DNA of 64,000 nt, taken from assembly GCA_019426215.1 (NCBI GenBank), contig CM033392.1, forward strand, positions 35,260,814 through 35,324,813, written 5' to 3'. The DNA is from Buddleja alternifolia (taxonomy: Eukaryota; Streptophyta; Magnoliopsida; Lamiales; Scrophulariaceae). The notes under the pieces were generated by a model. That model made no database searches. It was not told where the DNA came from and was given only the letters and a program-made list of their open reading frames with translations. The translations under genes were made by a program, and so were the position numbers. Positions 3,717 through 59,635 of this stretch are shown piece by piece. Within the stretch, counting starts at the first letter, position 1; the number at the start of each line of letters is the position of its first letter.

Positions 3717-5174
3717 ATGACCCACACATCTCAAAGAGACCTTGAAGATTTTGATTCCGAGATCGAGCGCACTTTCAATAGAAGAAGACGAGCACAAAGC
3801 CAAAACGAGAGTCAATTTGAGGCAATGGAAGGGAACAATCCCGTCAATTTGGAGGACCCAGGAATTCAAGCCTTGATTCAAGCCGCTGTTGCTGCCACAT
3901 TAGCATAAAGACAAGAGCAAGCTCCCCGTCCTTTACGTGATTATATGCAACCCACTGTTCATGGAGCCGCTGGTGCTATTGTACTACCCACGGTAGAAGC
4001 AAACAATTTTACAATCTCGCCGGCTATTCTTCAACTCATTTCCAATGAACAATATCGGGGTACGGCGGATGAGTCACCACATGCTCACATTACCAAGTTC
4101 CTTAGCTATTTGAGCACATTTCGACAAAATGGAGTGACCGATGATGCTATTAGAATGAGACTCTTCCCGTTCTCATTGAGGGATAAAGCAAGAGCTTGGC
4201 TTGACTCATTGCCAACGACATCCATTCATACTTGGGACCAATTGGTGGAGAAGTTTCTGAGTAAGTATTTTCCACCGGGGAAGACAGCCGCTATTAAAGT
4301 CGAGATACAAGGTTTCCGACAAATTGAGGGAGAGTCACTCTATGAAGCACTTGAGAGATTCAAGGAACTTCTCCGAAAATGCCCTCACCATGGTTTTGCC
4401 GTTTGGACTCAAGTGACCATCTTCTATCAAGGCCTTGGACCCGGCCTTCGCATTCATCTTGACGCAGCTGCGGGTGGTTCACTCATGAATTTACCACCAC
4501 AAGCAGCTTGGGAAATGATCGATAGAATGTCGGAAAACAACTACCAATGGCCTACCGAGAGAGTGATACTTCCAAAGAAGGCGAGCGGAGTTTATGAAGT
4601 GGAATCTTCCACTTCACTAGCTAATCAGGTAGAACTTTTGCACAAGAAATTGGATGCAATGAATTTCTCGGTAAACCAAGTGAAAACGTTGTGTGAAAAT
4701 TGTGGTGGAAATCATCACCTTACGGAGTGTCAACATGGCAGTCAATCTTATCAACCCGAATGTGTTGAAGATGCAAATTATGTGCAAAATTCAAATAGGA
4801 CACAAAACGACCCATTTTCAGAAAAATATAACCCGGGGTGGAGAAATCACCCGAACTTCTCATGGAGTAACAACAACAATGTGGTGAAGCAACCTCCCGG
4901 GTTTCAAACACACGGTGATAGACCGCCATTTCAACGCCAAGGGGGTTTTCAACCCAACACATTTCACAAACAAGGAGGTTACCAACCACAAGAAAAGAAA
5001 CCGAGTTTTGAGGAATTGATGCTCCAATATATAAAGAAAAATGATGAACGGTGTCACAACCTTGAAATTAATGTGAGCAACATACAAACTCAATTGGGAC
5101 AATTGGCTAGTCAACTTTCAGGTAGAACACCGGGATCGCTGCCTAGCGACACCGAGAAAAACCCGAAAGAATAG
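3717..5174 (+). pseudogene. gag: gag of G2 with two in-frame stops
   Basis: This codes the capsid/nucleocapsid part of the Athila polyprotein, which forms cytoplasmic virus-like particles around element RNA. The start is the ATG at 3717, followed by the usual acidic then Arg-rich leader (ERTFNRRRR). The central part, about 4000-4560, is the retrotransposon gag domain, with RLFPFSLRDKARAWL and YFPPGKTAAIK as signatures. CENCGGNHHLTEC near 4693-4731 is a zinc-knuckle-like motif with non-standard spacing. A Gln/Asn/Pro-rich tail and a predicted coiled segment follow. A TAA at 3906-3908 and a TAG at 5172-5174 interrupt the frame. The same frame continues into protease without a shift, so both look like point mutations in one long ORF. 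Confidence 0.9.
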
Positions 5175-11088: not shown

Positions 11089-11339
11089 GAAATTTGCACG
11101 GTCATAGCGAAACGGCATTCTGAACAAAACGCAAGTTTCTATCTTGCGCTCTCGTGATTTTAGCCATTTGAGATCGTTTAAGACCTCAAATATGCATTTT
11201 ATTACAAAAATATCCTATTTTCAAAATAAAACGCAAATTTGAGGCCTTAAACGATCTAAGATGGCTAAAATCAGGAGAACGCATGATAAATTCATGCGTT
11301 TTGTTCAGAATACCGTTTCTCTATGACCGTGTGAATTTC
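11089..11339. repeat. Long hairpin in the CACTA interior
   Basis: Arms of 103 bp (11089-11191 and 11237-11339) are inverted copies with scattered mismatches around a 45-bp loop. Weaker pairing extends about 17 bp further out on both sides. No ORF lies in it. It may be an older foldback element captured in the CACTA element, or a source of a long hairpin RNA. Confidence 0.85.
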
Positions 11340-11383
11340 CTGCCATTCCAACACCGCAAAATTTCAACCGAGAAATATTTTCA

Positions 11384-12460
11384 TAAATACACAAATATAC
11401 GTACACCCACACATACACAAATATACATACACCCATCAACATATACACAAATATACATACACCCATCCACATATATACATACACAAATATACATACAACC
11501 ACATATACACAAATATACACACACCCACACATACACAAATACACCCATTAACATATACACAAATATACATACACCCATCCACATATATACATACACAAAT
11601 ATACATACACCCATCAAAATATACACAAATATACATACACCCATTAACACATACACAAATATACATACACCCATCCACATATATACATACACAAATATAC
11701 ATACAACCACATATACACAAATATACACACACCCACACATACACAAATACACCCATTAACATATACACAAATATACATACACCCATCAACATATACACAA
11801 ATATACATACACCCATCAACATATACACAAATATACATACACCCATCAACATATATACATACACAAATATACATACACCCATCAACATATACACAAATAT
11901 ACATACACCCATCCACATATACACAAATATACGTACACTCATCCACATATATACATACACAAATGTACACACACCCACATATACACAAATGTACACACAC
12001 CCACACATACACAAATACACCCATTAACATATACACAAATACACATACACCCATCCACATATATACATACACAAATATACATACACCCATCCACATAAAT
12101 ACATACACAAATATACATACAACCACATATACACAAATATACACACACCCACACATACACAAATACACCCATTAACATACACACAAATATACATACACCC
12201 ATCCACATATATACATACACAAATATACATACACCCATCAACATATACACAAATATACATACACCCATCAAAATATACACAAATATACATACACCCATCC
12301 ACATATATACATACACAAATATACATACAACCACATATACACACACCAACACATACACAAATACACCCATTAACATATACACAAATATACATACACCCAT
12401 CGACATATACACAAATATACATATAACCACATATACATACACCCACACATATACAATTAT
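11384..12460. repeat. About 30-bp tandem repeat array in the CACTA element
   Basis: About 1.08 kb of variants built on CACAAATATACATACACCCA plus a TCAACATATA-type joint. The basic period is 30 bp, with longer (36 bp) and shorter variants, mostly multiples of six. One strand is almost free of G. Because the periods are multiples of three and the repeats lack stops in several frames, long ORFs rich in Cys, Tyr, Val and Ile or in Thr, His, Ile and Pro appear on both strands; these are repeat artefacts. Confidence 0.9.
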
Positions 12461-16011: not shown

Positions 16012-16824
16012 TTATTCACCTTTTGCTTGTATATTAGGACAGTCTCTTCTCCAGTGGCCCAGCGCACTACAGCATAAACATGTGTCCTGTTTTCTAGCCC
16101 TCTTATTTCTCCTTCGTTGTGCCTTGTTGCAAGTCGTACTGGATGCTCCCTCCTCTAAATGGGCATTATTCCTTTTTCCATCAAATGTTTTAGGAAATGT
16201 AATAGCCATCGGATTGTTCCATTTGTCCGTCTTTATTTGTTTCTGAGCAACCTTGAGTTTTTCCAATAGCCCAGCTAAAGATCCCTCAATGTCATTCATA
16301 TCAAAATTTATGACGAAATAATAGAACGAATCTGGGAGTGACTGTAGAATAAGATCGACTTGGAGATGCAGGTCCATGTAGAAGTTTAAAGATTTTAGTT
16401 TTTCTATCATGGTCATCATTTTGAAAACGTGTTCTCCAACATCTTCTCCTTCAGTCATTTTAGTTCGGAATAGATCCCTTGAAATTAAGTATCTGGCGGT
16501 CCTACCGCATTCTCCAAACAATTCATCCAGATGAAGGATAATGTCTCTTGCATTATCCATCTTATCATGAGACCTTTGCAGCTCTATGCACATTGAGCTC
16601 AATATGTACACTCTTGCTCTATGGTTGTCACAACACCAATCCCAATGAGCTAGGCGAACTTCAACACCCTCGTCTGGTCTAGGAATGGGAGGACGACCAA
16701 TTTCCAATACATAGTCAATGGATTCACTGCTAAGGACCATCCTAAGCATAGTGAGCCATTGTATGTAATTTGGACTAGTGAGAATCGTATTTTCCATTAA
16801 CTTCGACAGTGGTTTGGGAGACAT
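16012..16824 (-). pseudogene. gag: gag of copia A, open from start codon to the gag end
   Basis: Starting at the ATG complement ending at 16824 (MSPKPLSKLMENTILTSPNY), the frame is open for about 270 codons. It has a UBN2-type gag domain (WLTMLRMVLSSESIDYVLE; LHLQVDLILQSLPDSFYYF; LAGLLEKLKVAQKQI) and an intact CCHC knuckle, CLCCSALGHWRRDC, near 16070. An upstream in-frame Met at 16851 exists, but B and E align from MSPK/MSLL, so 16824 is preferred. The stop at 16012 falls where element B reads on into protease. Confidence 0.88.
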
Positions 16825-16851: not shown

Positions 16852-18069
16852 AATGACTGCAGAAAATAAGCCAGACTTAATTAGATTATTGAACTAAACT
16901 AATACCAAGTTTAAAATCAAGGACTTCGACTTATAACTTGGCTCCCACTACATTTTTCGAAATTTCACACTCCCACTGTGAAAAGACGGAAGCGATCGTT
17001 GATGAAAACTTCGTGGTGGGGATTGAGTTCTTTAATTAATAGAATGGATGGCAACCCTTTAACGATATTTGGTCCATTACTTAATTAAAGTGATGTCAAA
17101 TATCAATCTATCAAATAGACGGTTCAATCATATTTATCCCATAATCCACAAAAACCGCAACCCTTTAACGATTTATTGGTAATGTGGACTATCTAAGTTC
17201 ATTCCCACAAACTCCTCATAATCTAACATTTGAATTTCACCTTGCAACCTTTTAACGATATTTTGGGTGAAATATGTCTCGATTAAGGCATCAAATGCAC
17301 TTAATAAAATTCTAAAACAAAATCTTGATACATGACCCCCACTTACTAGGAAGATGCTACATATGGATTTAATCTTTGATCTTATCAAGTTTAGTAGAGG
17401 GAAAGGATGCCTAGCACCCCTTACTAACTTAGTATAATTTTTATTTGGGAGAATTCATGTTCTAAATATTTAATTCGTCTCACTTTGCACATTTACCAAA
17501 TTTATATAGCGCATATTGATAACACACATGCTTCATACAACTAATGAACATGCATCGAAAGCAATAATACAACACAAATGTCTCTGGGCTTTTATCTAGA
17601 GGGCCCAAGCCAATGGGCCATCATAAAATTGAAAAAGAAAAGCTTAGCTAATCTTCGTGGGCTCCAAGCTCCTCTTCTTTTGCATGATCTCCATTTTGAA
17701 AGACCTATTCTATTTCTATTTATTACAAGAGGTAATTTAAAACCTATACATAAATCTAGAAATAAAATAAAATGGGCTCAAACCGGCCCTTACAACCCAT
17801 CAAAAGAAATACATAATCAAAAGAAGCAACCTAAGCCCATAGACATATGTCACCATCACATAATACATGCTCGCGATAAATAAAGCACTTATGTTGGTGA
17901 TTAATAAAAATTAATTAGTCCAACTTAATTAATTTCCACAAAATTAATAAAAACTGCAGCAATATTCAGAATATTTTTATATGGAAAACACGTTCAAAGC
18001 AGGCCTCAAAAACGCAAAAAAAAAAAACAGTCAATCACATAAGCAATTAAACACAGAATTCAGAGATTG
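16852..18069 (-). other. 5' leader of copia A
   Basis: About 1.2 kb lies between the primer site and gag, with no coding content. It contains the three hairpins described separately (17030-17273), a block conserved in A, B, D and E around 17385-17470 and a purine-rich end. B has about 0.6 kb more here, including a GC-rich block that A lacks. Confidence 0.75.
17030..17273 (-). other. Triple hairpin with shared loop motif in the copia A leader
   Basis: There are three stems: 17030-17048 with 17073-17090 (10 plus 6 pairs around a bulge), 17141-17149 with 17184-17192 (9 pairs, one G-U in the RNA), and 17234-17241 with 17266-17273 (8 pairs). Each loop contains GCAACCCTTTAACGAT or a one-base variant; in the element RNA this reads CGUUAAAGGGUUGC. 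The set lies between primer site and gag, where retroviral packaging and dimer signals lie. The role is unknown. Confidence 0.75.
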
Positions 18070-18081
18070 GCTCTGATACCA
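18070..18081 (-). other. Primer binding site of copia A
   Basis: GCTCTGATACCA is the complement of TGGTATCAGAGC, the initiator tRNA-Met site. One base separates it from the LTR start at 18083. Confidence 0.92.
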
Positions 18082-18082
18082 C

Positions 18083-19686
18083 TGTTGGGAATTATACGAA
18101 TAAAACGCAGCGGAAAGTAAATTTAATTCCCAAAGCCCGAATCATCTCTAATCCTCGTGTTTAATTGTGTATAGAAAAATTACCGTTCTCGCTTATGTTG
18201 ATTTCTGAACGTGATCCTTTTCTCTAACGCCGAATTTGCCAACGTCTCTAATTCGTCACGCCAGAATCAAAAACGAAAAACTCCTCCTTTCTTCCTTGTC
18301 AAAGACGGCTAGAGAGAGAGAGAGAGAGGTGAGAGACTTTTTCTTGGAGAGAAAGTTATGTAAATTGCCTTGTGTTATTTTTCACCTTGTGATATATTTA
18401 TATCATTATGAAACAATAACACTAGCATGCAAGAGCCCTATTTGGGCGTCTATTTGGCCGCCCCTTAGTGGGCTCGGAAGCCTTTGGGCTTTCGTCTTGC
18501 TTGCTAATTAATTAATCGAATAATTTATTTATCCAATAAATAAATTGATAATCCAATTAATTCAATTCCTAATTAATTTATAATTCAATTTCTCCGAGAA
18601 ATTAATTAACTCATTAATTTAATTAATTAATTAAATTATACAATAATTAATAATTAATTACGGCATCCAATGCCGTGAATTTCTCTCAAATCTTTTTCCC
18701 ATGTTTTTCCTTTTGCACTTCCTTTAAGCGCGACTCTTTAGATTCGTCTCAAAAGACAATTGGGAGGAATCTAAAGGGGTGTGAGTGACACCTAGCCAGT
18801 CTCGTGGCTCACACTGTAACCCAATTGAGAATGAATGAATAGGATCATTCCAAACCTTTACGCTGTGAATACCGTACGTGTATAAACCTTTTATTCTTAT
18901 ATCCCAGTCAAGTAAGAGTCATGGTTTAAAGTCAAACTCATATAACTTGACCATATGCTTAAGCTCATAATAAGTTGAGCTATTTAAATGCTTTGGCCAA
19001 AGACTTTCATACTCACTTATTCATGATCGCATAGGATATTTTACTCATTCACTTATGAGAAAATAAATTCCGTATTGCAAATCTGTTAACAATGTTACTT
19101 GCCCATTAAGTCGCACTTCGAGGTCGATTCCACCAACAGGTGATTTGAATCTAACTACTCTAATGACAGACTTGATGTCACAAGTACATCTTCAACTCGA
19201 TTTCTCAGGTCAGAGGTTCACATGTACCTATCACTACTTATTAGTTTCATCATTGACTGTCAATGAGTGAATACCCATGTGATGAACTGATGCGAGCCGT
19301 GTTCGAACATATCAGTCCAACTGACACGTCTATGATATAAGTTCCCACTACCATTTCCATAGTGTACGACTGGCATTTTCTCTGTCGAAACTTACATCAT
19401 ACAAGTCTTTATTCACTATTGATGCCCAATCAATATTTCTTAGACTTGCGAACCCTTTTAGATGTCAAGGGTCAAACCATTCTAGTGCCATTCCTCCTAT
19501 CCCATAGGAGGTAGAAGGTTCGCCTTGTCATCAAGGACTTTACGTTGTTTATTCACACCTTATAAATGCCTATAAGAAAACAACAATTAACTGCCTTATA
19601 TTAATAGAAAAATCATAGTTTAGTTACAATGTTTATGCCTTATAAATCTTTCCTCTTTATGGCATTCGAGGGCATATACTCTAACA
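18083..19686 (-). repeat. 5' LTR of copia A
   Basis: 1604 bp from TGTTGGGA to CTCTAACA, placed next to the primer site of this minus-strand element. It contains a GA microsatellite (18310-18328) and a TATA box on the minus strand around 18391-18402 (AATGATATAAATATATC). Flanking CACGC at 19687 would be the target duplication; its partner lies left of the window. Confidence 0.9.
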
Positions 19687-20157
19687 CACGCGTACCTATC
19701 ACAACTTATCAGTTTCATCCTAGACTGTAAGTGAGTGAATACCCATATGATGAAACTGATGTGAGCCGTGTTCGAACATATTAGTCCAACTTATATGTCC
19801 ATGACATAAATTCCCACTATCATTCCCATAGTGTTCGACTGGAACTTTCTCTGTCAAAACTTATATCATGCAAGTCCTTGTTCTGTATTGATGTCCAGTT
19901 AAATACTTTCTTAGACTTGCGAACCCTATTTAGAGAATAAGGATCAAACCCTTCTATTACCATTCTCCCTATCCCATATGAAGTAGAAGGTTTGCCTTAT
20001 ACTCAAGGACTTTACGTTGTTTATTAACACCTTACAAATGCCTATAAGAAAACAACAAGATAATGCCTTATATATAATAAAATGATATTATTTAGTTACA
20101 AGTCAATGCCCTATAAATCTATCCTCTTTATGGCATTTGAGTTCATACACTCTAACA
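19687..20157 (-). repeat. Copia LTR fragment H
   Basis: 471 bp matching the last third of the B-type LTR (compare 32763-33234 and 40095-40564), ending CACTCTAACA. Its beginning is cut by copia A. It is followed directly by the leader of D, with no polypurine tract or primer site, so its right border is an insertion border. Confidence 0.82.
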
Positions 20158-23100
20158 TTATATGCATGTTAGCATGATATGAGTTAATATGCTTTGTGAG
20201 ACCTTGTTGAAATATTTAAAATTCTCCCAGTTAAAATAATACCGAGTTAGTAAAGGATGTGGGACATCCTCTCCCTCCACTAAGCTTTCTAAAATTAGAA
20301 TTACTATAAATGTGTAATGCTTCCTAGTTATGGGGGTTATGCATTTAGAAATAATTTGAAATTTTATTAAGTGCATGGAATGCCTTAATCGAAGCATATT
20401 TTACCCCAGAAACCTGTTCGGTTGCAAGGTGAAATTCAAATGTTAGATTATAGGAATTAGTGGGAATGAACTTGGGTAGTTCACGAGCTTAGAAACCTGT
20501 TCGGTTGCGGTTTGGTGAACTATGGGGAAAGGTATTGAATCATTTATTGGATAAATTGGTGTACGACACCACTTTGAATAATCAGTGGGCCAGAAATTGG
20601 TTAGGTTGCAACCCATTGAATTATTTGAAGAACTCAATACTCACTACGAAATCTATCCAACAGGATTTCTGAAAAATTGCAGTGGGAGTGCGATATTTCG
20701 AAAAATGTAGTGGGAGCCAAGTAAAATTAAAGTCCTAGTTTTACTTGTGTACAATATAAACATCCTAATTAAATCTTGTTTATTTTCTGCGTTTATTATA
20801 TCTCTCTCTTGAAAATCAACCCGTTTAAAATTATGCTCGAAAATTTTGTCTGAACTGGCCTAACCAAATCAACAGACTTAGAAACTTGAGGAATGTCCTC
20901 AGTTCATAGTCGTTGACTTGTATGCTTGAAGCAAGCATTACTCAAGTCTAAGAATGGGACGATGAGTAGGGCTTACATATGAGGCGCACTGGACATAGAA
21001 CCATGTGTTTTGGAAATAACTGTTCTATGTCCGGTTTTCTCAACTTTTTGTATTCTACATTCTAGAGCTAGTGCTCATGATTGAAGAATTAGAAAGAAGT
21101 ACAAAAGCTGGGGAAACAGGAGGTGATCAATGTTGGAACCAGACATGGTGTCGGGTGTATCCAAATATAGTCCACCTCTGTTCTTTTGTAATTCTGAACA
21201 CGTTTGGATGATTGATTAGTTTTATCAAATGACATTAAGAAAGTTATCGTTTTCTGACTTGGTCAAGAAATGATACTTCTTTAAGTTTGGTAATAACTTT
21301 CATGGCATTTATTTTGGAAATAAGTGTGGGAATAATACATCCTTACTAAAATTGTTAACACGATTTGAAAGTTTGGAATTAGTATATTGTGAACACATAA
21401 ACTAGAGAACGTAGTATGCTAGAAATAAACTGGAAGAATTGTTTGGCACCTAAGATTAGGTCATGCCTTACGAGCATAAGATTCACTAGTTAGGAGAAAT
21501 GTGGGGGTACAATCCCATTATGATTGGATCCCTATCCAAACTTAAGAATCTTATCTCATAGGCAAGATGATCAAATCTCCCTTCAAAGGGAACATATTAA
21601 AGGGCCGCTCAAGTTCCAAAGTTTGTGCGTACTGACGTCTATGGTTGAATATATGGTATCTTACTAAGACACTACAATTGGATTGTAATGTCAAGTGTAT
21701 GATTTCCTAATTTGACCCCTTCTTAAAAAAATGTAACATAGCTTCACAGTTTACACTTCCAGCGACTCTACAAATGAATAGGGTAGCAGTATGCAAGAAC
21801 TAGAAATCGTTGGACATGACTCATTCTATTCTAAGCTACATAGAATTACCCAATTCATAATGAGTCTTGTGCTACTCATAGGTTCATCTTGAATAGATAT
21901 CCCTCCAAATTCATTCCTACGGCACCATATTAGATGTGGCGCCAGTGGAAGCCTGATCTTAAACACGTGATGGTATGGGAATTCCCAACCTACGTTGAAA
22001 AGATAAAGGTAAAGAATCTGGAGGCTTGGTCCTTAAAAGGACGTTTTGTTAGTTATCCCAATGATTCAGTGGGAGAACTCCTTTTACCTACATAATGACC
22101 AGGGGATCATTATGGCCTTAGAGGTCTGTTGTCTCGAAGATAAGATTGTTCGAGAAATTGGAGAAGGTGGAAAGATTATTCTAAAAGAATAAAACAAAAA
22201 CAACCTAGGACATTACTATTCAAGGAACCAAACTAAGCCCATTAAAACATAATCACCAACGATTGAAATGGAAGAGTCTCTCAGCCGCCTGAGAGAAGTG
22301 GTTGTCTGCTACAAAGAAAGCATAGAATGAATGATGTAGCAGAGGAGAACCAAGGATACAATTCCTCTACCATGACAAATCGATGGTGGATATGGACTCT
22401 ACGAGAAGGTGTCAAGGTAATGAAAGTGAAGATGGATTAGATGACTTTGAATCAATCCTGGACTCTAGTAGATCGCCCTAAGAGTTTTGAACTCGTCAGA
22501 GGCGAGTACATCTACAAGAGAAAGATTGATTCGAATGGCAAGGCCAGGCTGATGGCGAAAAGGTGTAGTCAAAAGAAGGGCATTGACTAGGAGGAAGCCC
22601 CTTTGCCACAGCTAAAATCAAATCCATTAAAATCTTACTTTTGATAACAACACACCAATATTATGAAAATCTAGCACGTGGATGTGAAGACTCGTGCATA
22701 ATTAGATTCCTCTAGAAGGACATCCATTTCGAACAGCCCAAGGGTTTCACATTTGAGGTCGATTATCATAAGGTCTACATGCTGTATGAATCGATTTATG
22801 GATTTAAGCGGACCTCTCGTAGTTAGAATCTTTACTTTGATGACATAATTTGGAATTGTGATATCATCTAAACAAAGAGAGACCATCTGTGTGCAATAAG
22901 GTCAGTGGGAGAAATGATGTGGGCTCATTGACTATGTCAAGACTTAAACATCGAGCATGTTCTCCATGAAAGACTTGGGAGAAGCCATTTTTATCCTTAT
23001 AATTTGCATTTATGAAAATAGAGCGAATACGATAATGGTCCCTTCCCAAACCCTTTACTTAGAATAAATCCTAAAGCAATTTAGGAAGAAGATCTGAGAA

Positions 23101-23700: not shown

Positions 23701-24655
23701 TGTTGGAATGTGCCCTCGATGCCAATGAGGAGTTAGAATACGAGGCACAAGGTTATATTGCACAACCTCTAATTAATATAAAGACAACAATATGTTATTC
23801 GTATAATTCTTGATGGCATCTATAAAGTTTTAAATGAACAACTAGTCCATGTGTGTCAAGGCAAACCTTCGCATTCCTTAAGGAGATGGGCGCTGGAAGG
23901 GTTTGGTACTCGATCACTTAAATAGTTCGCAAGTCGGAAAATCTCAATTGGGCATTGAGATTCGTATAGACTTGTATGACACATACTCTGACAAAGGAGT
24001 GTCAGTTGAACACTATGGGATAGTGGGAGTTTGTGTCATAGATACATTGATGGGATTAGTGTATTCGAACACGGCTCGTAGTAATCCGATCACATGGGTT
24101 TTTACCCAGTGACTGTCAATGATTGGATTACTGATTATGAAGGTATGTGTGAGCCTTAGACCTGAGGAGTTACGGTCACAGTGTGTTTGTGACGTTGGAT
24201 TCTGTCACTAGAAGTTAGACCTAAATCACCCGTTGAAAGGTGGGTCAACCTCGAAATACGTTCCAATGGGAAAGTAGCATGTGAGGTGATTACCAAGAAG
24301 GAATTCACTGTCTCGAAAGTAAACGAGAAGTATCCTATGCGGTCATAGGTAAATGAGATTGAAAGTCTCTGGCCAGAGCTGATGAACTAACTCGTGTTTA
24401 GTGGTCTCATATTACTATGATTCTTAAGCATAGTATCGAGTCCTATGAGTTTGACATATTCCATGACTCTCACTCGATCGTGATACGTCAGTGAAGGGCT
24501 TATACTCATACGGTATCATAATCTAGAGGTTCGTAATGATATAATCATTTCGTACTCGGTTGGGCTACGATGTGAGGCCACGGTGCTGGCTAGGTGTCAC
24601 CCACATGCTTTGGTATCTCCCATTGCCAATTGAGACGAACCTAGAGAGTCGCGCT
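23701..24655 (+). repeat. 3' LTR of copia D, first part
   Basis: It begins TGTTGGAATG straight after the polypurine tract. It is the inverse-orientation relative of the A and B LTRs, as seen at 24555-24655 (AATTGAGACGAACCTA next to GAGTCGCGCT). It is split at 24655 by element K. Position and motif both support a 3' LTR on the plus strand. Confidence 0.88.
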
Positions 24656-25809
24656 TGACACGAAGAATCCTTACGTGTTTGCACAACAAGTGGACTGGTC
24701 GTGTGTATTAATAAAGTGGATTTTTAAGTCCGAATTGTCGATCCCACAGAGACTTGTATTTTAGACTTCTTGAATTTAAAGCAAGCAATAATTAAACTAA
24801 AACTAAAGATTTAAAGATTTTAAAAGCAATAAAATAAACTAAAACAAGAATTAACTCAAATATTATGGAAGCAAGATACAAGAAACAAGATGTCGAAATC
24901 AAGATAGCTATGGAAGAGAGCAACTAAGACACATGTGCTGGCATAAATTAATTAATTCTTGTTAAAATCACGTTTTCATATTATTAGACTAATGTTGCTT
25001 TGGTGGAAACTCCTTAATTAACTACTACCCGATCTCTCGGCTGTAATAATCCTATGACTACGTGACGGTTCTCTAAATATGACTATCCAAGAATCAAATC
25101 ATTAGCCATGCATTCACGTTTTAGAATTTCCTCGGATAAATCCGGCTAACTGCACCCGAAAATCTATACATATCTCTAGGAGCAATTCCTCATGTTTTTC
25201 GGATGATGTGATGATTTCTTTGAACCCTAACTTATATTCTCTCGAATCATAAACTAGGCTAATTAGCAAGCATATGGTGATCAAACATATGATTGGAATT
25301 ACAGCACAAAATCAATACACAAAGCAACAATAGAATTAATATGAAAAACACAATTTATAACTCAAATATCATAATTTAGCCTCAACATGACCTTAGTTCG
25401 AAGAATCTAATTCATCATAAAAGATAAAAGATAGAAACTTAAATTAAGATTCATATTCATAGACAAAAATAAATCTAAATCTAAGAAACTCCCTCGTATT
25501 TTTGATGGTTGAACTTCGATCTTCATCTCTTCCATGCTTCTTGATTTCTTCACCTTCAAGGGCTTTTGAAAATCTTCATAAATATGTAAAAACGATGTCT
25601 AAACCCCATTAGGGCTCTATTCTATGTGTATTTCGTCTCTAAATGCTCTAAAATTCTGCATTTCCTTCCAGTTTTCCTCAATTGCAATGATTTTCCACCT
25701 TTACTCAATAAGCACACAAATTACAAGCATATGTGGCATAAATCATGCATAAACCAATGTAAATAACATAAATATGAGGCTCTAAAACATGTAAATCTCA
25801 CACCTATCA
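24656..25809 (-). repeat. Left LTR of K (minus orientation, normal 3' LTR)
   Basis: 1154 bp, in the sense direction starting TGATAGGTGTG and ending CGTGTCA. Just inside it (25810-25823) the complement of AAGTTTGGGGGTGT forms a polypurine tract, which marks it as a 3' LTR. It shares U5 landmarks with LTR G2 but lacks the GC or TTCGAA palindrome clusters. Confidence 0.85.
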
Positions 25810-28711: not shown

Positions 28712-29673
28712 GAGACGAAATACACATAGAATAGAGCCCTAATGAGGTTTAGACATCGTTTTTACATATTTATGAAGATTTTCAAAAGCCCTTGAAGGTG
28801 AAGAAATCAAGAAGCATGGAAGAGATGAAGATCGAAGTTCAACCATCAAAAATACGAGGGAGTTTCTTAGATTTAGATTTATTTTTGTCTATGAATATGA
28901 ATTTTAATTTAAGTTTCTATCTTTTATCTTTTATGATGAATTAGATTCTTCGAACTAAGGCCATGTTGAGGCTAAATTATGATATTTGAGTTATAAATTG
29001 TGTTTTTCATATTAATTCTATTGTTGCTTTGTGTATTGATTTTGTGCTGTAATTCCAATCATATGTAGCCTAGTTTATGATTCGAGAGAATATAAGTTAG
29101 GGTTCAAAGAAATCATCACATCATCCGAAAAACATGAGGAATTGCTCCTAGAGATAGGTATAGATTTCCGGGTGCAGTTAGCCGGATTTATCCGAGGAAA
29201 TTCTAAAACGTGAATGCATGGCTAATGATTTGATTCTCGGATAGACATATTTAGAGAACCATCACGCAGTTATAGGATTATTACAACCGAGACATCGGGT
29301 AGTAATTATTTAAGGTTATTTCCACCAAAGCAACATTAGTCTAATAATATGAAAACGTGATTTTAACAAGAATTGATTAATTTATGCCAACACATGTGTC
29401 TTAGTTGCTCTCTTCCATAGCTATCTTGATTTCGACATCTTGTTTCTTGTATCTTGCTTCCATAATATTTGAGTTAATTCTTGTTTTAGTTTATTTTATT
29501 GCTTTTAAAATCTTTAAATCTTTAGTTTTAGTTTAATTATTGCTTGCTTTAAATTCAAGAAGTCTAAAATACAAGTCTCTGTGGGATCGACAATCCGGAC
29601 TTAAAAATCCACTTTATTACTGCACACGACCAGTCCACTTGCTGTTTCAAACACGTAAGGATTTTTCGTGTCA
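28712..29673 (+). repeat. Right LTR of K, inverted and 5'-truncated
   Basis: Reverse complement of 24656-25639, starting GAGACGAAATAC and ending CGTGTCA against the GCGCT duplication. In a normal minus-strand element this copy would point the other way and would begin TGACACG at its left. Confidence 0.88.
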
Positions 29674-29678
29674 GCGCT

Positions 29679-37122: not shown

Positions 37123-37324
37123 AATTAAATTTGAGAGAGAAAAATCAAATAACTGCAGAAAATAAACTAGACTTTATTAGACTTGTGTAACTAAACTAAA
37201 ATCAAGTTTAAAATAAAGGACTTCAACTTATAACTTGGCTCCCACCACATTTTTCGAGATTCACACTCCCACTGTGAAAAACGGAAGTGATCGTTGTAAT
37301 GTACTTCGTGGTGGGGATTGAGTT

Positions 37325-37569
37325 CTTTAATTAATCTAATGGATGGCAACCCTTTAATGATATTTGGTCCATTATTTAATTAAAGCTATGTCCAACATCA
37401 ATCTATCCAATAGATGGTTCAATCTTCTTTTTTCCCATAATCCACCAAAACCGCAACCCTTTAACGATTTATAGGCTTTGTGGATTATCTAAGTTTACTC
37501 CCACTAACTCCTCATAATCTAACATTTGAATTTCACCTTGCAACCCTTTAACGATATTTAGGGTGAAAT
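37325..37569 (-). other. Triple hairpin in the copia B leader
   Basis: Stems: 37325-37343 with 37368-37385, 37437-37445 with 37480-37488 (ATAATCCAC/GTGGATTAT, perfect), and 37530-37537 with 37562-37569 (ATTTCACC/GGTGAAAT, perfect). Loops all hold GCAACCCTTTAA(C/T)GAT. This is the clearest copy of the array. Confidence 0.78.
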
Positions 37570-38972
37570 ATGTCTCGATTAAGGCATCTAATGTACTTAA
37601 TAAAATTCTAGAATTAAATCTTGATACGACCCCCACTTATTGGGAAGATGGCATATACTAGGTTTAGTGCTTAATTTTATTAAGTTTAGTGGAGGGAAAG
37701 GATGCCTAGCACCCCTTACTAACTTAGTATAATTTTTGTTTGGGAGAATTCATGTTCTAAAAATTTATCTAAGTCTTACTTTGCACATTATTCAATTTAT
37801 ATAGCGCATATTGATAATATACATGCTTCATACAACTAATGAACTTGCATCGAAAGCAATAAACCAACACATATGTCCATGGGCTTTATTTAGAGGGTCC
37901 AAGCCAATGGGCCATCATTAAAAGGAAAATAAGCCTAGCTATTCTTCGTGGGCTCCAAGCTCCTCTTCTTTTAGATTGATCTCCTTTTGAAAGGCCTATT
38001 CTATTTCTATCTATTACATGAGATTATTGAACAACCTATACATAATTCTAAAAATATAATAAACGGGCTCAAGTCCGGCCCTTACAACCCATAAAAGAAA
38101 ATACAATCAAAAGAAATAATCTAAGCCCATGGACAATGTCACCATCATATAATATATGCTGACGAAAAATAAAGCAATTATGTTGGTGATTAAGTTAATA
38201 ATTAATTAGTCCAACTAATTAACTTCCTTTATGAAACTCCAAATTTTATTGATAATCATGACAATAAACCATTTAGTGAGAATCTTTAATTTAAATAAAT
38301 AACTTAATTAAAAAATTCTCCAAGAACCATTAATTAATTATTTCACTTAAATTAATAATATTCAATAAAAACAATTTGGGCTTGATTTCATAAAATATAA
38401 ATTACCATCCATTGGCATATTTAATTTTAATTAATTAGACCCAAAACTAGTTTATTGAAGAGTCCATAATTTTAATTAAAATAATTTGGGCTTATTTAAT
38501 TAAATCTGGGTCATCATCCTTTTGACCCACCCGGATAATTAAAATAGCCCAAAATCCATTTATTTAAAAATTTGGACCCGAGAAAAAATAAACTGACCCG
38601 TTAGGACCAGGGTCATGGACCCGGGCCCACAAAACAAGGCACACGGCAAACGGCAGCGCGGCCAGGCCCAGCGCACGGTGTCGTGTGCGCACAGCGTATA
38701 CATGTGTGCTGTCTGCACGCCCAGCGCGCAGACTGCGCATGTCATTTTCATCGCGCTCGTCCCGGGGTTTTTTTGACCCGATTCTTACAAAAATTAGATT
38801 TTTCAATTCACAAGTCATCATACTACAACATACATGAATTAAACGCAGAAAAATCATGGATTACTATCATGAAAAACATATTCAAAACATGCTTCAAAAA
38901 CGCGAAAAAACACAATCACGTAATCAATTAAATACAGAAATCAGAGATTTCTGTATGAAACCAATTAAACAT
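37570..38972 (-). other. Distal leader of copia B with a GC-rich block
   Basis: Noncoding. AT-rich sequence surrounds a GC-rich block at about 38570-38780, including ACCCGGGCCCAC and GCGCGCAG. E has a comparable block split by a solo LTR (55845-55991 and 57562-57710), while A lacks it. ORFs in two overlapping frames of this block look like GC artefacts. Confidence 0.6.
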
Positions 38973-38984
38973 GCTCTGATACCA
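38973..38984 (-). other. Primer binding site of copia B
   Basis: GCTCTGATACCA, complement of the initiator tRNA-Met site, identical to that of A, one base from the LTR. Confidence 0.92.
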
Positions 38985-38985
38985 C

Positions 38986-40564
38986 GTTTGGGAAAAATTG
39001 CATAAAATCAAATAACGCAGCGGAAGAATATATTTAAATCCCAGCGGCTCATCTCTATTTCTCGTATTTAAATTGAGTTTCGAATTCAATTACCGTTCTC
39101 GCGTAAGTTGAATTCTGAACCAACTTTGCAATCCCTTCTTGAACAGCAAATTCATCGCTATCTCTAAATTGCCACGCCAGAGTCAAAAACGAAAATCTTA
39201 TTTTTCTTCTTCTCTTGAGGGAGACGGCTAGAGAGAGAGAGAGGATGGAGTGTTTTTTACTTGGAGAGAAAGTTTTTTGTTAATTCACTTAGGTTAATTT
39301 TCTCTAAGTAGTACATTTATACTACAATGAAACAATAACCTAGGCTAAATTACCATATGGACGCCCACTTTATGGCTTTTAAAGCCATCGAGCTTTAGCC
39401 CTATTATGCTTATTTAATTAATTAATTAAATAATCAATTAAATCCATGTTAATTTTATAATTAAAATCCTCTAAGGAATTAATTAATTCATTAACTTACT
39501 TAATTAATATACTCATCTAATGATTAATTAATTAATCTCGATATCCAATACCGAAAATTCTCTCAAGTCTTTTCTATGATTTTCCTTTTGCACTTCCTTT
39601 AAGTGCGACTCTTTAGGTTCATCTCAAAAGGCAATTGGCAGGAAACCAAAAGGATGTGAGTAACATCTAGCCAGTCACGTGGCTCACATCGTATCCCAAT
39701 TGAGAACGAATGAATAGGATCATTCCAAACCATATATGATGTGAATACCGTACGAGTATAAACCTTTTATTCTTATATCCCAGTTAAGTGAGGGTCATGG
39801 TTTTAGTCAAACTCACACGACTTGACCATATGCTTAGCTCATAATGAGTCGAGGTCATTTTATGCTTTGGCCAAAGACTTTTAACCTCACTCATTCATGA
39901 TTGCATAGGATATTTAGCTCATTCACTTATGAGAGAATAAATCTCAGTTTGCTAATCAGTTAACAATGCTACTTGCCCATCAAGTCACACTTCGCGGTCG
40001 ATCCCACTAAAGAGTGATTTGGATCTAACTACTCTAATGACAGACTTGATGTCACAAGTACATCTTCAACTCAATTCCTCAGGTCTAAGGTTCACGCGTA
40101 CCTATCACAACTTATCAGTTTCATCATTGATTGTTAGTGAGTGAATACCCATGTGATGAAACTGATGCGAGTCGTGTTCGAACATATTAGTCTAACTTAT
40201 ACGTCCATGACATAAGTTCCCACTATCATTCCCATAGTGTTCGACTGGCACTTTCTCCATCGAAACTTATATCATGCAAGTCCTTGTTCTGTATTCATGT
40301 CCAGTCAAATACTTTCTTAGACTTGCGAACCCTATATAGAGAATAAGGATCAAACCCTTCTAAAGCCATTCTTTCTATCCCATAGGAAGTAGAAGGTTTT
40401 CCTTTATTCTCAAGGACTTTACGTTGTTTTCTAACACCTTATAAATGTCTATAAGAAAACTACAATACAATGCCTTGTATATAATAAAAAGATATTGTTT
40501 AGTTACAAGTCAATGCCCTATAAATCTATACTCTTTATGGAATTTGAGGGTATATACTCGAACA
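38986..40564 (-). repeat. 5' LTR of copia B
   Basis: 1579 bp partner of 31609-33234. Its first base is changed (GTTTGGG in place of TGTTGGG) and its end is ACTCGAACA, next to GCCAC. Many single-base differences from the partner LTR show the insertion is not recent. Confidence 0.9.
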
Positions 40565-54479: not shown

Positions 54480-54662
54480 AGGAAAAGAAATAACTGCAGA
54501 AAAGTACATAAACTTATTATAGTTGATCATAATTATTGTTCAAAGTTTAAATCAAGGACTTTCACAATAAAATTGGCTTCCAATATATTTTTTTGAAAAT
54601 CCACACTCCCACTGTAGAATTCGAAAATCATTGTTGGTAGACTTCGTAGTGGTCATTGAATT

Positions 54663-54904
54663 CTTTAATTAGTTTAATAGGTTGCAACCTTTTAACGGTA
54701 TGTGGCCTAATTAATCTATTAAAGTGGTGTCCAACACCAACCCATCAAATGGATGACTCAATCACTTTTCTCATTATTCATCAAATCGCAACTTTTTAAC
54801 GGTCATATTGATTTATGAATAATTTACTTTTAACCCACTGACTATCTATTAGTCTAACAATTGAATTTCACCTTGCAACCTTTTAACGGCTTATAGGGTG
54901 AAAT
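54663..54904 (-). other. Triple hairpin in the copia E leader
   Basis: Stems: 54663-54681 with 54706-54724, 54773-54781 with 54815-54823 (ATTATTCAT/ATGAATAAT, perfect), and 54865-54872 with 54897-54904 (ATTTCACC/GGTGAAAT, perfect). Loops hold GCAAC(C/T)TTTTAACGG. The second stem differs from that of B at paired positions but still pairs fully. Confidence 0.75.
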
Positions 54905-55991
54905 TTGTTTCGACCAATGGCATTTTATGAACTTAGAAAAATCAAAAAATATATTTCAATACATAACCCCCATTCCTTAGGGACGATATTATATATTAAA
55001 CATAATTTCAATTTTTCCTAAGTTTAGTGGAGAGAAGGATACCTAGTACCGTTTAACTTAATATTTTAAATGTGGGAGAATTTAATTATTTAAAAGTCTC
55101 ACTTTGCACATTAATTCATTTTACTCATAGCACATAAATATGGGTTATAATAAACTGAAAGCAATCCTAGGAAGCTAACAACACACGATTCATGGACTAT
55201 GATCCTAGATTGAGTCAAGCTAATGCCTCAATCACAAAAAGAAGCTATACTAAAGCTTCCAGATCTCTATCTTGTATCTTCTTGGCTCGTCATGAATTTC
55301 TCCTTGGGCATATTCTATTTCTAACTATTACATTTCAATATAAGCAACCTGTACAAAATTCTATAGAAAGAAAATAAAATTAAGCTCAAAATAGCCTTTA
55401 CAACCCTTGAAATGAAACATAATAAAACACGAGCCTAAGTCCATGAATCGTTTCTCCCATCACATAACATGTCAAATATGGTATATCATATAGCACACGA
55501 AATACAAATATGTTAATATCTAATTAAATTCCAAATCTAATTATATAATTCATATTCTTGAGGAAAAATAAAAATTATTTAATTCTATTAGAAAATCCAA
55601 TTTATAAGACTCTTATTAATTTTATATTAAAATTCAATTTTAATAAAAATTAATCTCTAAGTCCATTAAAACTAATTTTAAAATCGAAAATATCTTATTT
55701 CATTTAAAAGTCCAACTTTAATAAAATTTGATAACTTGAAATTTTAAAATCCTATTTTAATAAACAATATTATTTATTTTTACATTAAAATCCAATTTTA
55801 ATCAAAAACTAAATATATAAATATTTATTAAAATATTACCCGGGTTACCCATGGGTCAACCCGGGTCGGGTTTGATTGGCCCGCGTGATGAAAAACACAC
55901 GGGCAGGCCCACTGTAGAGCCCAACAGCGCGGCAACTGTTGGGATAGCTATCAGCATGGGTTGTCGCTGTGCAGCCCATTCGCACATGACA
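54905..55991 (-). other. Leader of copia E, proximal part
   Basis: Noncoding and AT-rich, with the conserved block near 55020-55085 (as at 17395-17450 in A) and a GC-rich block from about 55845. It is interrupted at 55991 by the solo LTR. Confidence 0.65.
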
Positions 55992-57556
55992 TGTTGGTCC
56001 CAAGTGGCATACGAAAGGGTCTAAAAAGGAGGGGGGGTTGAATAGACCCTGAAATCTTTTTCGATTTCAAAAGATTCGTATTAAAAAGGATTTTGGACAC
56101 TTGAAAAGTAGACGCTTGAAGTGTCTAACACTTGACTTAAGTGTTCACTTAAAAATATAGGCGCTTTGGTGAAGCGTCTAACGAAGACTGTTTTTAGAAA
56201 GTTCACTTAGATTTAAAGACTTGAATACTACAACCAAATAGGTTTGATCGTTCACTTCTTTGATCAGTGTTAGCACAGCAGAATGTTTTTTGGAGTGTTC
56301 TCTTTTAAAGCTTTAGCGTCACAGAAAGTGTATTTAGTTGCTTAGCGTTTGATTAAGTTTTACATTATCAGATTATGATATGACAATATGAATGCTGAAA
56401 GTAAAGTAAAGAGCAATATTTGTAAGGTTCGTTGGGTGGTGTAATCCCAACTACGTCCTTCTTCTCCTCGAACACTTGGAGGCAATCCACTAAAATGATT
56501 TTCAAAGAATCACACAGAATTTTCTACAAATTAGGGAGAGATGGATGTCGATGACTTGAGCTCCTTGATCACACAGATTTCTGCTCCAAATCACTTCAAT
56601 CCCCTTGCTTCTTTCACCCAGAAATATGGAAAGTATCCAACTTCGACTTCACACAGATCGCGAGGCTTGGATAGGGGTTTTTCTAAACGGTTTGTTTGAT
56701 TTTGATAAAGTTCAAACAACTAGGAATATCTCAGTAGTAATGTGGGTTTCTCTGAAAAGAGTGTTTGAGATATTGGTTGACTGTCTCAAGATTTGAAGAA
56801 AAGCAAAGAGAATATTTTCTTGAAAGTTTTGGCTTTTCTGAGATTGTAAGGAATGAGACTTCAATGCAACAGCAATTCGACTTGATAATTGTTCTCTGTA
56901 TTTGGCTTGTTGTTAAAGTCCTATTTATAGGCATTCTTGGAAAAAGTGTCTGTTTGACACATGCACGAGCGCGTGTCTCTCACTTTCGCGAGTGAACAGC
57001 TTTTTGTCCTTTTTCCTGAAAATCTGCTGCACAAAAGTTGGTGCTGCAGTCTTTGAATAGTTGACAGTCCAATAGGGTGGCTTCTCCATACGTCTGAAAG
57101 TGCTTATCACATTTAATGCTCTTATCAGCATTTAATGCATTGGAATTAAATGTCTGTTGGCTTTTAATGCTTTGAGAATATTTGCATTAAAACTCCTTCT
57201 GGACTTAGAAATAAATTCAGGTGAAATCAGTCATTGATAGACGCTAATTCAACCTTGAATCACTTCTATCCTGTAAGGTGACACTTGGAGTAGCAAGTCA
57301 TTCTAGACGCTTGGAATCTTCATCTTTATTCAGACTTCAGGCGCTTGAGTCTTCAAACTTTACTTCTGATAAGCTCACTCAGAACAAATCAGACGCTCAG
57401 TCTAAGACAACTTAACCTAACAATCTAGAATAAAAATAAAACAAAGCCTATTACAAATCTAACGCTTCAAAGCTGAAAAACAAACTTACATATTTTGGGG
57501 TCTAACAAAAGGTCCTAATTGTCATCATCAAAATATCTAACATGAAATTCCTAACA
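55992..57556 (-). mobile_element. Solo LTR of a SIRE/Maximus-like copia element
   Basis: 1565 bp with ends TGTTGG...CTAACA and perfect TGACA duplications (55987-55991 and 57557-57561). Without it the E leader joins cleanly. The sense strand is minus: it starts TGTTAGGAATTTC, has a TTTTGATGATGACAATTAGG block (as in SIRE-type LTRs) and a TATA box, CCTATAAATAGG, near 56921-56932. No internal region is left, as after LTR-LTR recombination. The family name is tentative. Confidence 0.82.
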
Positions 57557-57561
57557 TGACA

Positions 57562-57918
57562 GCCCAAGTGCCATGTGTTAATGGGCTTTCTCAGTGAGCC
57601 AATGGTTGGGCCTGCACATGGAAGACCCAGTATGTCCATGTGCTAAAGCTGCCAGCCCTTCCCGCCACCACCGCGGAGGCGGGTTTTGCTGCCGGTGATG
57701 GGGATTTCCCCCATCTTCTTTTGATTATTTTATCATATTGAAATTACATAAAATCAAATTTTAATAATTTCTAACAAATAAAATAAACAATAAATTTCTC
57801 AAGAACATAAAATCATGAAATCTACATATCTAATCATGCATCGCGAAAACATTGTAAGTCAGTCAGCATCTAATCACATATTTACACGTAAGTTACATAT
57901 GTCGAACCCCACGGTTTG
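57562..57918 (-). other. Leader of copia E, distal part
   Basis: Continues the GC-rich block (to about 57710) and then AT-rich sequence up to the primer site. No coding sequence is seen. Confidence 0.6.
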
Positions 57919-57930
57919 GCTCATATACCA
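57919..57930 (-). other. Degenerate primer binding site of copia E
   Basis: GCTCATATACCA differs at two positions from the GCTCTGATACCA of A and B, and stands just before an LTR start. Confidence 0.7.
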
Positions 57931-57931
57931 C

Positions 57932-59635
57932 TAATGCAAAAAATAGATAAAACCCAGCGAAAACGGTATAACAATTTTTTTTTTTAAATATCTCCCAGTA
58001 CAGAATCAACTTGAGGTTTTATTACACGTATGAAAAGGAAGGGTTTCGACACTTTACCCATTGAAGCAAAGTGGTTGAAGAAATTTAACTTTTCTTCAAA
58101 CTTTCGAAATCTTCATTTCTTTTGCGGATTGATCCAACTGATTGATTCTTGATCTAAGCAGTACAATTGTGCTGCCTATAAATCATCTCGCTGGAAAACT
58201 TAAACGAAAATCTCCTCCTTCTTTGGCTTTGAGGCCGACAGCTATGAAGAGAGAGAGGGGAGAGTTTTTCTTTTTCTTGTAGATGAAGTGTATAATGACT
58301 TGTGGGTTTTAATTAAGTGACATATTTATATCAATTAAGTCAAAACCCTTGGACTAAATAAGCCCATATTAGGCTTCCATAATGGCTGCTCGAACACTGT
58401 GGATGTGCCTCATGGTGCTTCAATTTTGATCCAATCCAATCTTTTATTTAATTATTTAATTCAATCCAATAATTAAACTAATTAAATAATTGATAGGATA
58501 TTTAATTAATTTTATTTCTCTAAGAAACAATATATTAATTAGTACTATAAATGAATTAACTTATTCCTCCAAATAGTTAATTTCATTTATTCATGATTAA
58601 TTTTAAGTATCCAATACTTAAAATATCGCTACAAGAAATTTTCCAAAATATCCATTCAATTTTTCTTTTTAAGCGTGACACTTTAGGTCCATCTTTATTT
58701 GGCAATGGGAGGATTCGATTAAATGTGGGAAATACCTAACCAATCATGTGACCCACATCGAACTCCAAATAAGATGAAATGATTTAAATCATTGTCAACC
58801 TTTTCTATCGTAATTTCCATGTGGATATAAACTCTTTGTTTCCATATCACAGTCATGTAAGAGTCATGGTTTAGGTCAAACTCATAAACTTGACTCTATA
58901 CTTTATTTATAATAAGTCTAGAATAGTGAGCTTTTCCTATTTGAGTCTTTCTCAAATAGCTCGTATGCTTTGGCCAAAGACTATAGATCTAACTTACTTA
59001 TAAATGCATAGGATAATTTCTCGTTCACTTACGAGGGAATGAATTCCATCTTGGATATCAGTTCAGATTACCACTTGCCCATTAGGTTGTAGTTCGAGGT
59101 CGACCCCACCAACGGGTAAATTGGGTCTAACTACTCTAATGACAAATCTAACATCATAAGTATATCTTCAACTCCACTCCTCAGGTCAAAAGTTCAGACA
59201 CACTTATTATAATTTAATCAATTTTGTCATTGACTGTCAAAAAGCGAAATCCATGCGACAAAATTGATGCGAGTCATGTCTGAGTGATGTGACCTCCATC
59301 AGTGCACCTATAATATGAGTTCTTCACTTCTACCTAGTGATTAACGAGCACATCTCTCGTCAAAACTCATATTATACAAATCGCGTTGATTTCCAATGTC
59401 CAATTGGGAATCCTTGACTTGCAGACCAATTTAGCATATAAGTATTAAACTCATCTAGTGCCTCAGAGAGTTAAATCTTGTGTGCATGGACTTATAATTG
59501 ATTATAATATATAAATGTCAATAATAAAGTAAACAACTAAAGAGTCTTTTATTAAAATAAAGAATAACAATTACATGATCATAATGTCCTTATTCTCTCC
59601 TATCCTCTAATGCCATTCGAGGACATAAACCTTCA
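57932..59635 (-). repeat. 5' LTR of copia E
   Basis: About 1.7 kb related to the A and B LTRs throughout (GAGAGAGAGG near 58250, CGAGGTCGACCCCACCAACG near 59095, CTCTAATGCCATTCGAGGAC near 59605). It is much diverged from them and from the 45179-45625 fragment. The end CTTCA at 59635 is estimated. It marks the right border of the transposon stack. Confidence 0.78.

Follow-up and report, generated by a model that had tools for sequence, protein, structure and literature searches.

Several related retrotransposons at this locus carry, in the RNA leader ahead of gag, three successive hairpins that present the same module, which raises the question of what such an array is kept for. How an RNA is chosen for packaging in plant LTR retrotransposons is, as far as the literature examined shows, little known. 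The family described here offers a repeated RNA module, thousands of motif copies, a predicted splice layout that assigns roles to its RNAs and variants without gag, and with it the packaging question becomes testable using short reporter RNAs. The window, by which is meant the whole 64,000-nt stretch of Buddleja alternifolia DNA that was analysed, contains several related Ty1/copia elements: A, B and E on the minus strand and D on the plus strand. Element A has copia-type gag and pol domains (PF14223, PF00665, PF25597, and PF07727), and its integrase precedes its reverse transcriptase, which is the Ty1/copia order. A CCHC-like motif was read by eye close to the end of its gag, and the resemblance of this gag is, we presume, to the Angela/BARE lineage. 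An exact TGGTATCAGAGC stands directly after the 5' LTR in A (after ..CAACAG) and in B (after ..AAACG), where a tRNA primer site belongs; no primer site was found in element D, the 5' end of which is cut off. The main parts are as follows.

16012..16824, minus strand: gag reading frame of element A (PF14223)
18070..18081, minus strand: primer binding site of element A, TGGTATCAGAGC
18082..19686, minus strand: 5' LTR of element A, beginning TGTTAG and ending ..CAACAG just before the primer site
38973-38984, minus strand: primer site of element B
57919-57930, minus strand: degenerate primer site of element E

A second, partial copy of the A-type LTR end (~470 bp, 19687-20157) adjoins the 5' LTR of A.

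The initial annotation reported three stem-loops between primer site and gag in each of the four elements, and this observation is confirmed. The location also stands, with the qualification that the primer site is distant. Between primer site and gag ATG, a long leader extends over 1260 nt in A and 1865 nt in B, and the hairpins occupy its last part; the primer site precedes the aligned hairpin region by 764 nt in A, by 1369 nt in B and by ~1.2-2.4 kb in other copies. The hairpins are listed with the loop in brackets.

17226..17277, minus strand: element A hairpin 1, AUC[GUUAAAA]GGUUGC, from fold, alignment and pair counts
17141..17192, minus strand: element A hairpin 2, AUC[GUUAAAG]GGUUGC, from fold, alignment and pair counts
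17091..17105, minus strand: element A small triloop hairpin, between hairpins 2 and 3
17030..17090, minus strand: element A hairpin 3 with its outer extension, AUC[GUUAAAG]GGUUGC, from fold, alignment, event test and pair counts
37522..37573, minus strand: element B hairpin 1, from motif and fold, coordinates by offset from A
37437..37488, minus strand: element B hairpin 2, from motif and fold, coordinates by offset from A
37325..37385, minus strand: element B hairpin 3, from motif and fold, coordinates by offset from A
54857..54908, minus strand: element E hairpin 1, GCC[GUUAAAA]GGUUGC, ends by offset from A
54772..54822, minus strand: element E hairpin 2, ACC[GUUAAAA]AGUUGC, ends by offset from A
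54663..54723, minus strand: element E hairpin 3, ACC[GUUAAAA]GGUUGC, ends by offset from A
20393..20444, plus strand: element D (no gag found) hairpin 1, ACC[UGUUC]GGUUGC, from fold
20476..20523, plus strand: element D hairpin 2, ACC[UGUUC]GGUUGC, from fold
20572..20630, plus strand: element D hairpin 3, AUU[GGUUA]GGUUGC, from fold

The loop motif said to be common to A, B and E is indeed found nine times on the minus strand as CGTTAAARGGTTGC, seven times exactly and twice with one mismatch, and D does carry a variant array (AAACCTGTTCGGTTGC twice and AAATTGGTTAGGTTGC once). A pattern of paired motifs matched the window twice and none of 100 shuffled windows. All 12 window hairpins fold with an outer stem around the motif (z-scores -1.1 to -3.5), hairpin 2 of E without its inner stem; by itself, such folding of single sequences is only moderately convincing. 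A search of Rfam gave no family for the hairpins above the gathering score. The sole match above that score in the window is plant snoRNA R71, elsewhere (4290-4396, minus strand), and it overlaps a long open frame on the other strand.

The motif is common in the host genome. Exact copies of the motif number 3,225 in the 853.6 Mb assembly against 5 for the reversed control, the D-type motif 709 against 0 and the E-type motif 72 against 0, these being counts of single motifs and not of complete arrays. In the multi-motif places listed first for each search or fetched, motifs are spaced mostly 83-87 nt and 102-109 nt apart, or ~190 nt where the middle motif is altered, with few deviations (e.g., 94 nt). 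All 50 loci taken from the motif list (L001-L050, some of them the same element) and all 30 D-type loci match the leader profile. After removal of same-element duplicates and partial matches, these 80 loci and the window yielded 61 distinct leaders, four of them from the window; counts on 60 leaders leave out L079. All fetched loci lie on one contig, and the frequencies of types among them are not representative of the genome.

Comparison of these leaders changes the description of the module. Its short inner stem, A-Y-C paired with G-G-U, closes a loop of 7 or 5 nt, and UGC separates that stem from the outer one. The loop letters, which had been taken as the conserved part, vary (GUUAAAR, GACAGAG, AGCAAAA, UGUUC, GGUUA, and GAAUG); what is constant is the core A-Y-C / loop / GGUUGC. 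The hexamer GGUUGC is exact in hairpins 1, 2 and 3 of 50, 54 and 46 of the 60 elements, respectively, figures in which one hairpin per element is biased to GGUUGC by the use of exact loop motifs to find the loci. Loop length is equal across the three hairpins in 60 of 60 elements (7/7/7 in 37 and 5/5/5 in 23), as expected if one partner reads all three sites. The equality is suggestive; a single historical switch could have produced it, and for this reason no statistic is attached. In 30 of the 36 pairs compared, similarity is higher in the leader than in gag (0.78 vs. 0.62 for A and D, for example). Element A and L022 are discordant in the same sense, with leaders 0.88 and gag 0.61 alike, while L022 and L073 have similar Gag (0.81) and leaders that are 0.74 alike and of different loop classes. 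These discordances may be read as a sign of reassortment between leader and gag. Since loop class does not follow Gag type in the latter pair, the reader of the array could also be a host protein that binds by way of the shared core.

Paired changes between copies had been taken to indicate selection on RNA structure, and this is supported by a tree-based event test with slid and shuffled controls, in which compensation goes beyond what phylogeny would give. The stem changes quoted from the four window elements are correct, and they extend to further copies: in 28 leaders, 93.4% of cells are paired, compared with 28.6-44.1% when partners are slid, and double-change cells number 133 against 8-21. 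Pairs are mostly kept as letters change in the 60 leaders (hairpin 1, TA in 50 and CG in 10; hairpin 2, TA in 41 and CG in 18), and among outer stems that of hairpin 2 ranks highest, with 97.1% of cells paired. In the event test, parsimony changes in the 60 leaders were placed on a tree built from unpaired columns only and redistributed 1000 times. Double compensatory changes numbered 24, against a null mean of 3.58 and a maximum of 12 in the 1000 redistributions, and pair-breaking changes fell below expectation (107 vs. 147.0, lowest null 116). Partners slid by 1 or 2 columns gave 2-3 double compensations, not above their own null.

The compensations are unevenly distributed. The stem of hairpin 2 has five, the stem of hairpin 3 six and its extension three; hairpin 1 is weak, with one event in the stem and one in the extension, and the inner stems have none, their main change being U-G to C-G. 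The most among the helices tested (8 vs. 0.57 expected) were found in the small triloop hairpin, which was added after the alignment had been seen; an earlier run without it gave 14 against 2.85 expected. A pairwise G-test modelled on R-scape, run on 28 sequences, found no single pair at E<=0.2, and two of five measures did not stand out from shuffles of the 28 leaders (pairs with a double change, 18 vs. 15.8; pair types, 48 vs. 51.4). The branch-event test was adopted after the G-test result, and the small hairpin and the slid controls were added later still, each with the earlier results known.

The leader also has the predicted anatomy of an intron, with GT..AG ends, a branch-like site and a pyrimidine-rich 3' end. 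This intron and the gag-less copies described below are additions to the initial annotation.

16857..18183, minus strand: predicted leader intron of element A (GTAATT...TTTTCTGCAG), 1327 nt, containing the primer site and the array
37153..39093, minus strand: predicted leader intron of element B, 1941 nt
54494..58057, minus strand: possible leader intron of element E, a weaker case with the donor ATGG/GTAAAG picked by eye

For the donor, 20 upstream stretches were fetched, 15 of which contained a primer site (<=1 mismatch); A and B bring the number of LTR ends to 17. In 14 of these, the best-scoring GT, by 5' splice-site weights that are our own approximations, precedes the primer site by 98-142 nt, and several subfamilies have AAAAG/GTAAGT or ACGG/GTAAGT there. 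The three exceptions are L018 (GT changed to AT), L032 (last exon base changed) and L012 (donor region replaced). At the other end, a CTAAT-like site followed by a CTGCAG-like end just before gag is present in 40 of 46 gag-bearing elements and 0 of 15 gag-less ones, by a pattern that was composed after the sequences had been seen and that six of the 46 gag-bearing elements fail.

The distribution of ATGs differs on the two sides of the donor. Within 190 nt upstream of it, 12 gag-bearing LTRs have 3 ATGs, against 20.3 in shuffles (0 of 2000 as low), and the same stretch of two gag-less LTRs has 4 and 2. From the donor to the LTR end, the 12 gag-bearing LTRs have 31 ATGs with 25.2 expected, and so no depletion, and the predicted introns of A and B contain 31 and 51 (30.1 and 44.8 expected). 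These counts indicate that the predicted first exon avoids ATG whereas the predicted intron does not. In element A, no ATG occurs from the nearest TATA-like box to the donor, and none in the short leader part of the second exon. A junction probe for one subfamily found 0 processed copies in genomic DNA, which is expected if the spliced RNA is without a primer site and gives no support either; a looser first probe had matched ordinary 3' splice sites, and it was the tighter one that gave 0. Taken together, a leader intron that holds both the array and the tRNA primer site is predicted.

In 15 of the 61 elements, no gag was detected within 1200 nt downstream (tblastn with eight gag proteins), and all 15 keep the three hairpins. 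GGUUGC is exact in 38 of their 45 loops, compared with 112 of 135 in the other 45 elements, and it is altered in one hairpin of 7 of the 15. The gag-less elements share a related body and are not 15 independent cases, for which reason a Fisher value for acceptor loss is not a fair probability. The protease active site reads CAT TCT AGA in 11 of the 15, compared with GAT TCT GGA in E (frame by homology); the marker is absent from L047 and L063, which may be differently truncated. The bodies of ten gag-less copies are 0.81-0.94 alike, except for pairs with L063 (0.64-0.68) and the pair L036-L038 (0.71). Several gag-less elements have other pyrimidine-rich ..TTAG sites that are possible substitute acceptors, and L062 and L045 keep a perfect donor despite the missing gag.

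The leaders of these copies are of three kinds when matched with the nearest gag-bearing leader, E-like (0.84-0.85), D-like (0.83-0.86) and A-like (0.77-0.82), and in 15 of 15 the two matched leaders share a loop length class. In the E-like pair, L012 and L031, the bodies are 0.91 alike and the leaders 0.79, and for this pair only does the comparison point clearly to leader exchange. A-like and D-like gag-less leaders are 0.79-0.87 alike to each other, about as close as to gag-bearing ones, and exchange is accordingly not shown between those two kinds.

These observations are consistent with an array that serves in the recognition of genomic RNA for packaging and is kept only on the unspliced RNA, a reading to which we would assign a probability of about one half. 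A splice that joins U5 of the LTR to the bases immediately ahead of the gag ATG would yield a gag-pol mRNA without array or primer site. The unspliced RNA would retain both, and would be expected to be poorly translated because of the many ATGs (31 and 51) in the predicted introns of A and B. The array could then offer three equal sites to a trans-acting protein, the CCHC part of Gag being the likeliest candidate, and mark the unspliced genomic RNA for the virus-like particle; this is suggested by its retention in gag-less elements, the three equal sites and the CCHC-like Gag. Splicing in the plant, protein binding and packaging are all inferred. A bolder reading, with a probability slightly below one half, is that the leader intron divides the RNA into two pools, the spliced for translation only and the unspliced for packaging and copying only, and that parasitic copies without gag lose the 3' splice site but not the array, with one or more groups of these parasites seeming to have acquired their leader from another, gag-bearing lineage.

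The main rival to packaging is that the array acts as a nuclear export or intron-retention element for intron-containing RNA. Genomic RNA would have to leave the nucleus with its intron in place, and the three module copies would recruit a host export factor, by analogy with the transport elements of Mason-Pfizer virus, IAP and MusD. The position inside the predicted intron suits this proposal, as does a core motif common to elements with diverged Gag, which would be expected of a host partner, and the sections consulted of two papers mention elements for the export of unspliced retroelement RNA (PMC12786077, PMC10309623). Where both gag and the 3' splice-site pattern are missing, an element should depend less on aid in retaining its intron, and yet such elements keep three hairpins. 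Some of them may use other splice sites and the objection is not decisive, but overall export as the function is regarded as unlikely. The retention of the array in gag-less elements, with neither acceptor pattern nor detected gag to translate, also argues against hairpins that merely control the leader, by slowing intron removal or repressing initiation, and have no packaging role. Such control would be in keeping with the place of the A array, which precedes the predicted 3' splice site by ~173-420 nt, but it leaves the three equal loops unexplained and is improbable.

Dimerisation through loop-loop pairing of GGUUGC with GCAACC is more doubtful still. Hairpin 3 carries the palindrome GUUGCAAC (8-10 nt), which could serve such pairing, in E, D and numerous further copies, but not in A, B and copies closely related to them; in the aligned copies shown, hairpins 1 and 2 are also without it, and the pairing was set aside because A and B do not have it. 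Of the packaging and dimer signals to which the initial annotation likened the array, a packaging-like role fits the predicted restriction to unspliced RNA, the gag-less retention and the equal loop lengths, and the dimer palindrome is absent in A and B. That the similarity reflects shared ancestry only and the hairpins are functionless is very hard to credit. Many copies are close relatives, and the G-test and the two shuffle measures agree with such a view, but it is contradicted by the event test on the unpaired-column tree with its slid controls, by the shuffle controls, and by the leader being more conserved than gag in most compared pairs.

Among known systems, the packaging reading has an analogy in the psi leaders of HIV-1 and MLV, where a structured element is present on unspliced RNA only, as predicted here; psi lies downstream of the major splice donor and has several protein-binding sites. 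Retroviral primer sites, however, precede the donor, and retroviral Gag is translated from unspliced RNA; in the present family the predicted intron encloses the primer site, and spliced RNA would be the source of Gag. The constitutive transport element of Mason-Pfizer virus has repeated loops. Those of MPMV, IAP and MusD are RNA structures on unspliced retroelement RNA, as the array would be, but they are export elements, and the comparison drawn here is one of description (excerpts of PMC12786077, PMC10309623).

In barley, the Ty1/copia elements BARE1 and BARE2 of the Angela lineage likewise comprise gag-bearing and gag-less partners, with separate RNA pools for translation and replication, and BARE2 is described as missing splicing signals while its packaging and dimer signals are said to be conserved (PMC3735527, in the parts consulted). 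The systems also differ: the BARE1 intron, of 104 nt and near the gag end, makes a Gag-only mRNA and, unlike the one predicted here, does not remove leader or primer site. BARE2 lost its gag start codon by deletion of 8 bp, while in the gag-less copies of the present family gag is for the most part undetectable. The parts consulted contain no repeated-loop array (PMC3735527). Plant LTR elements are generally without introns, with few exceptions, according to the sections consulted of a 2025 review, which name no leader packaging element (PMC12786077). Ogre and EVADE share with the present family a facultative intron in a plant LTR element, but, in the portions seen, theirs lie between or within the gag-protease and pol coding parts and not in the leader (PMC12786077, PMC6317226). 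Among the matches listed in searches of open-licence PMC articles (titles and abstract starts; e.g., the best 20 of 164), none concerned repeated-loop hairpins in a plant copia leader or a leader intron that removes the primer site, and the motif strings matched only articles on other subjects, judged by title.

Two further features of the window lie outside the leaders. An inverted repeat pair of ~1 kb (24651-25639 / 28712-29677, 95% alike) starts where the similarity to the 3' LTR of D ends and is perhaps a fold-back or terminal-inverted-repeat element. A short-period tandem array, with spacings of 8, 14, and 22, covers at least 11315-12027.
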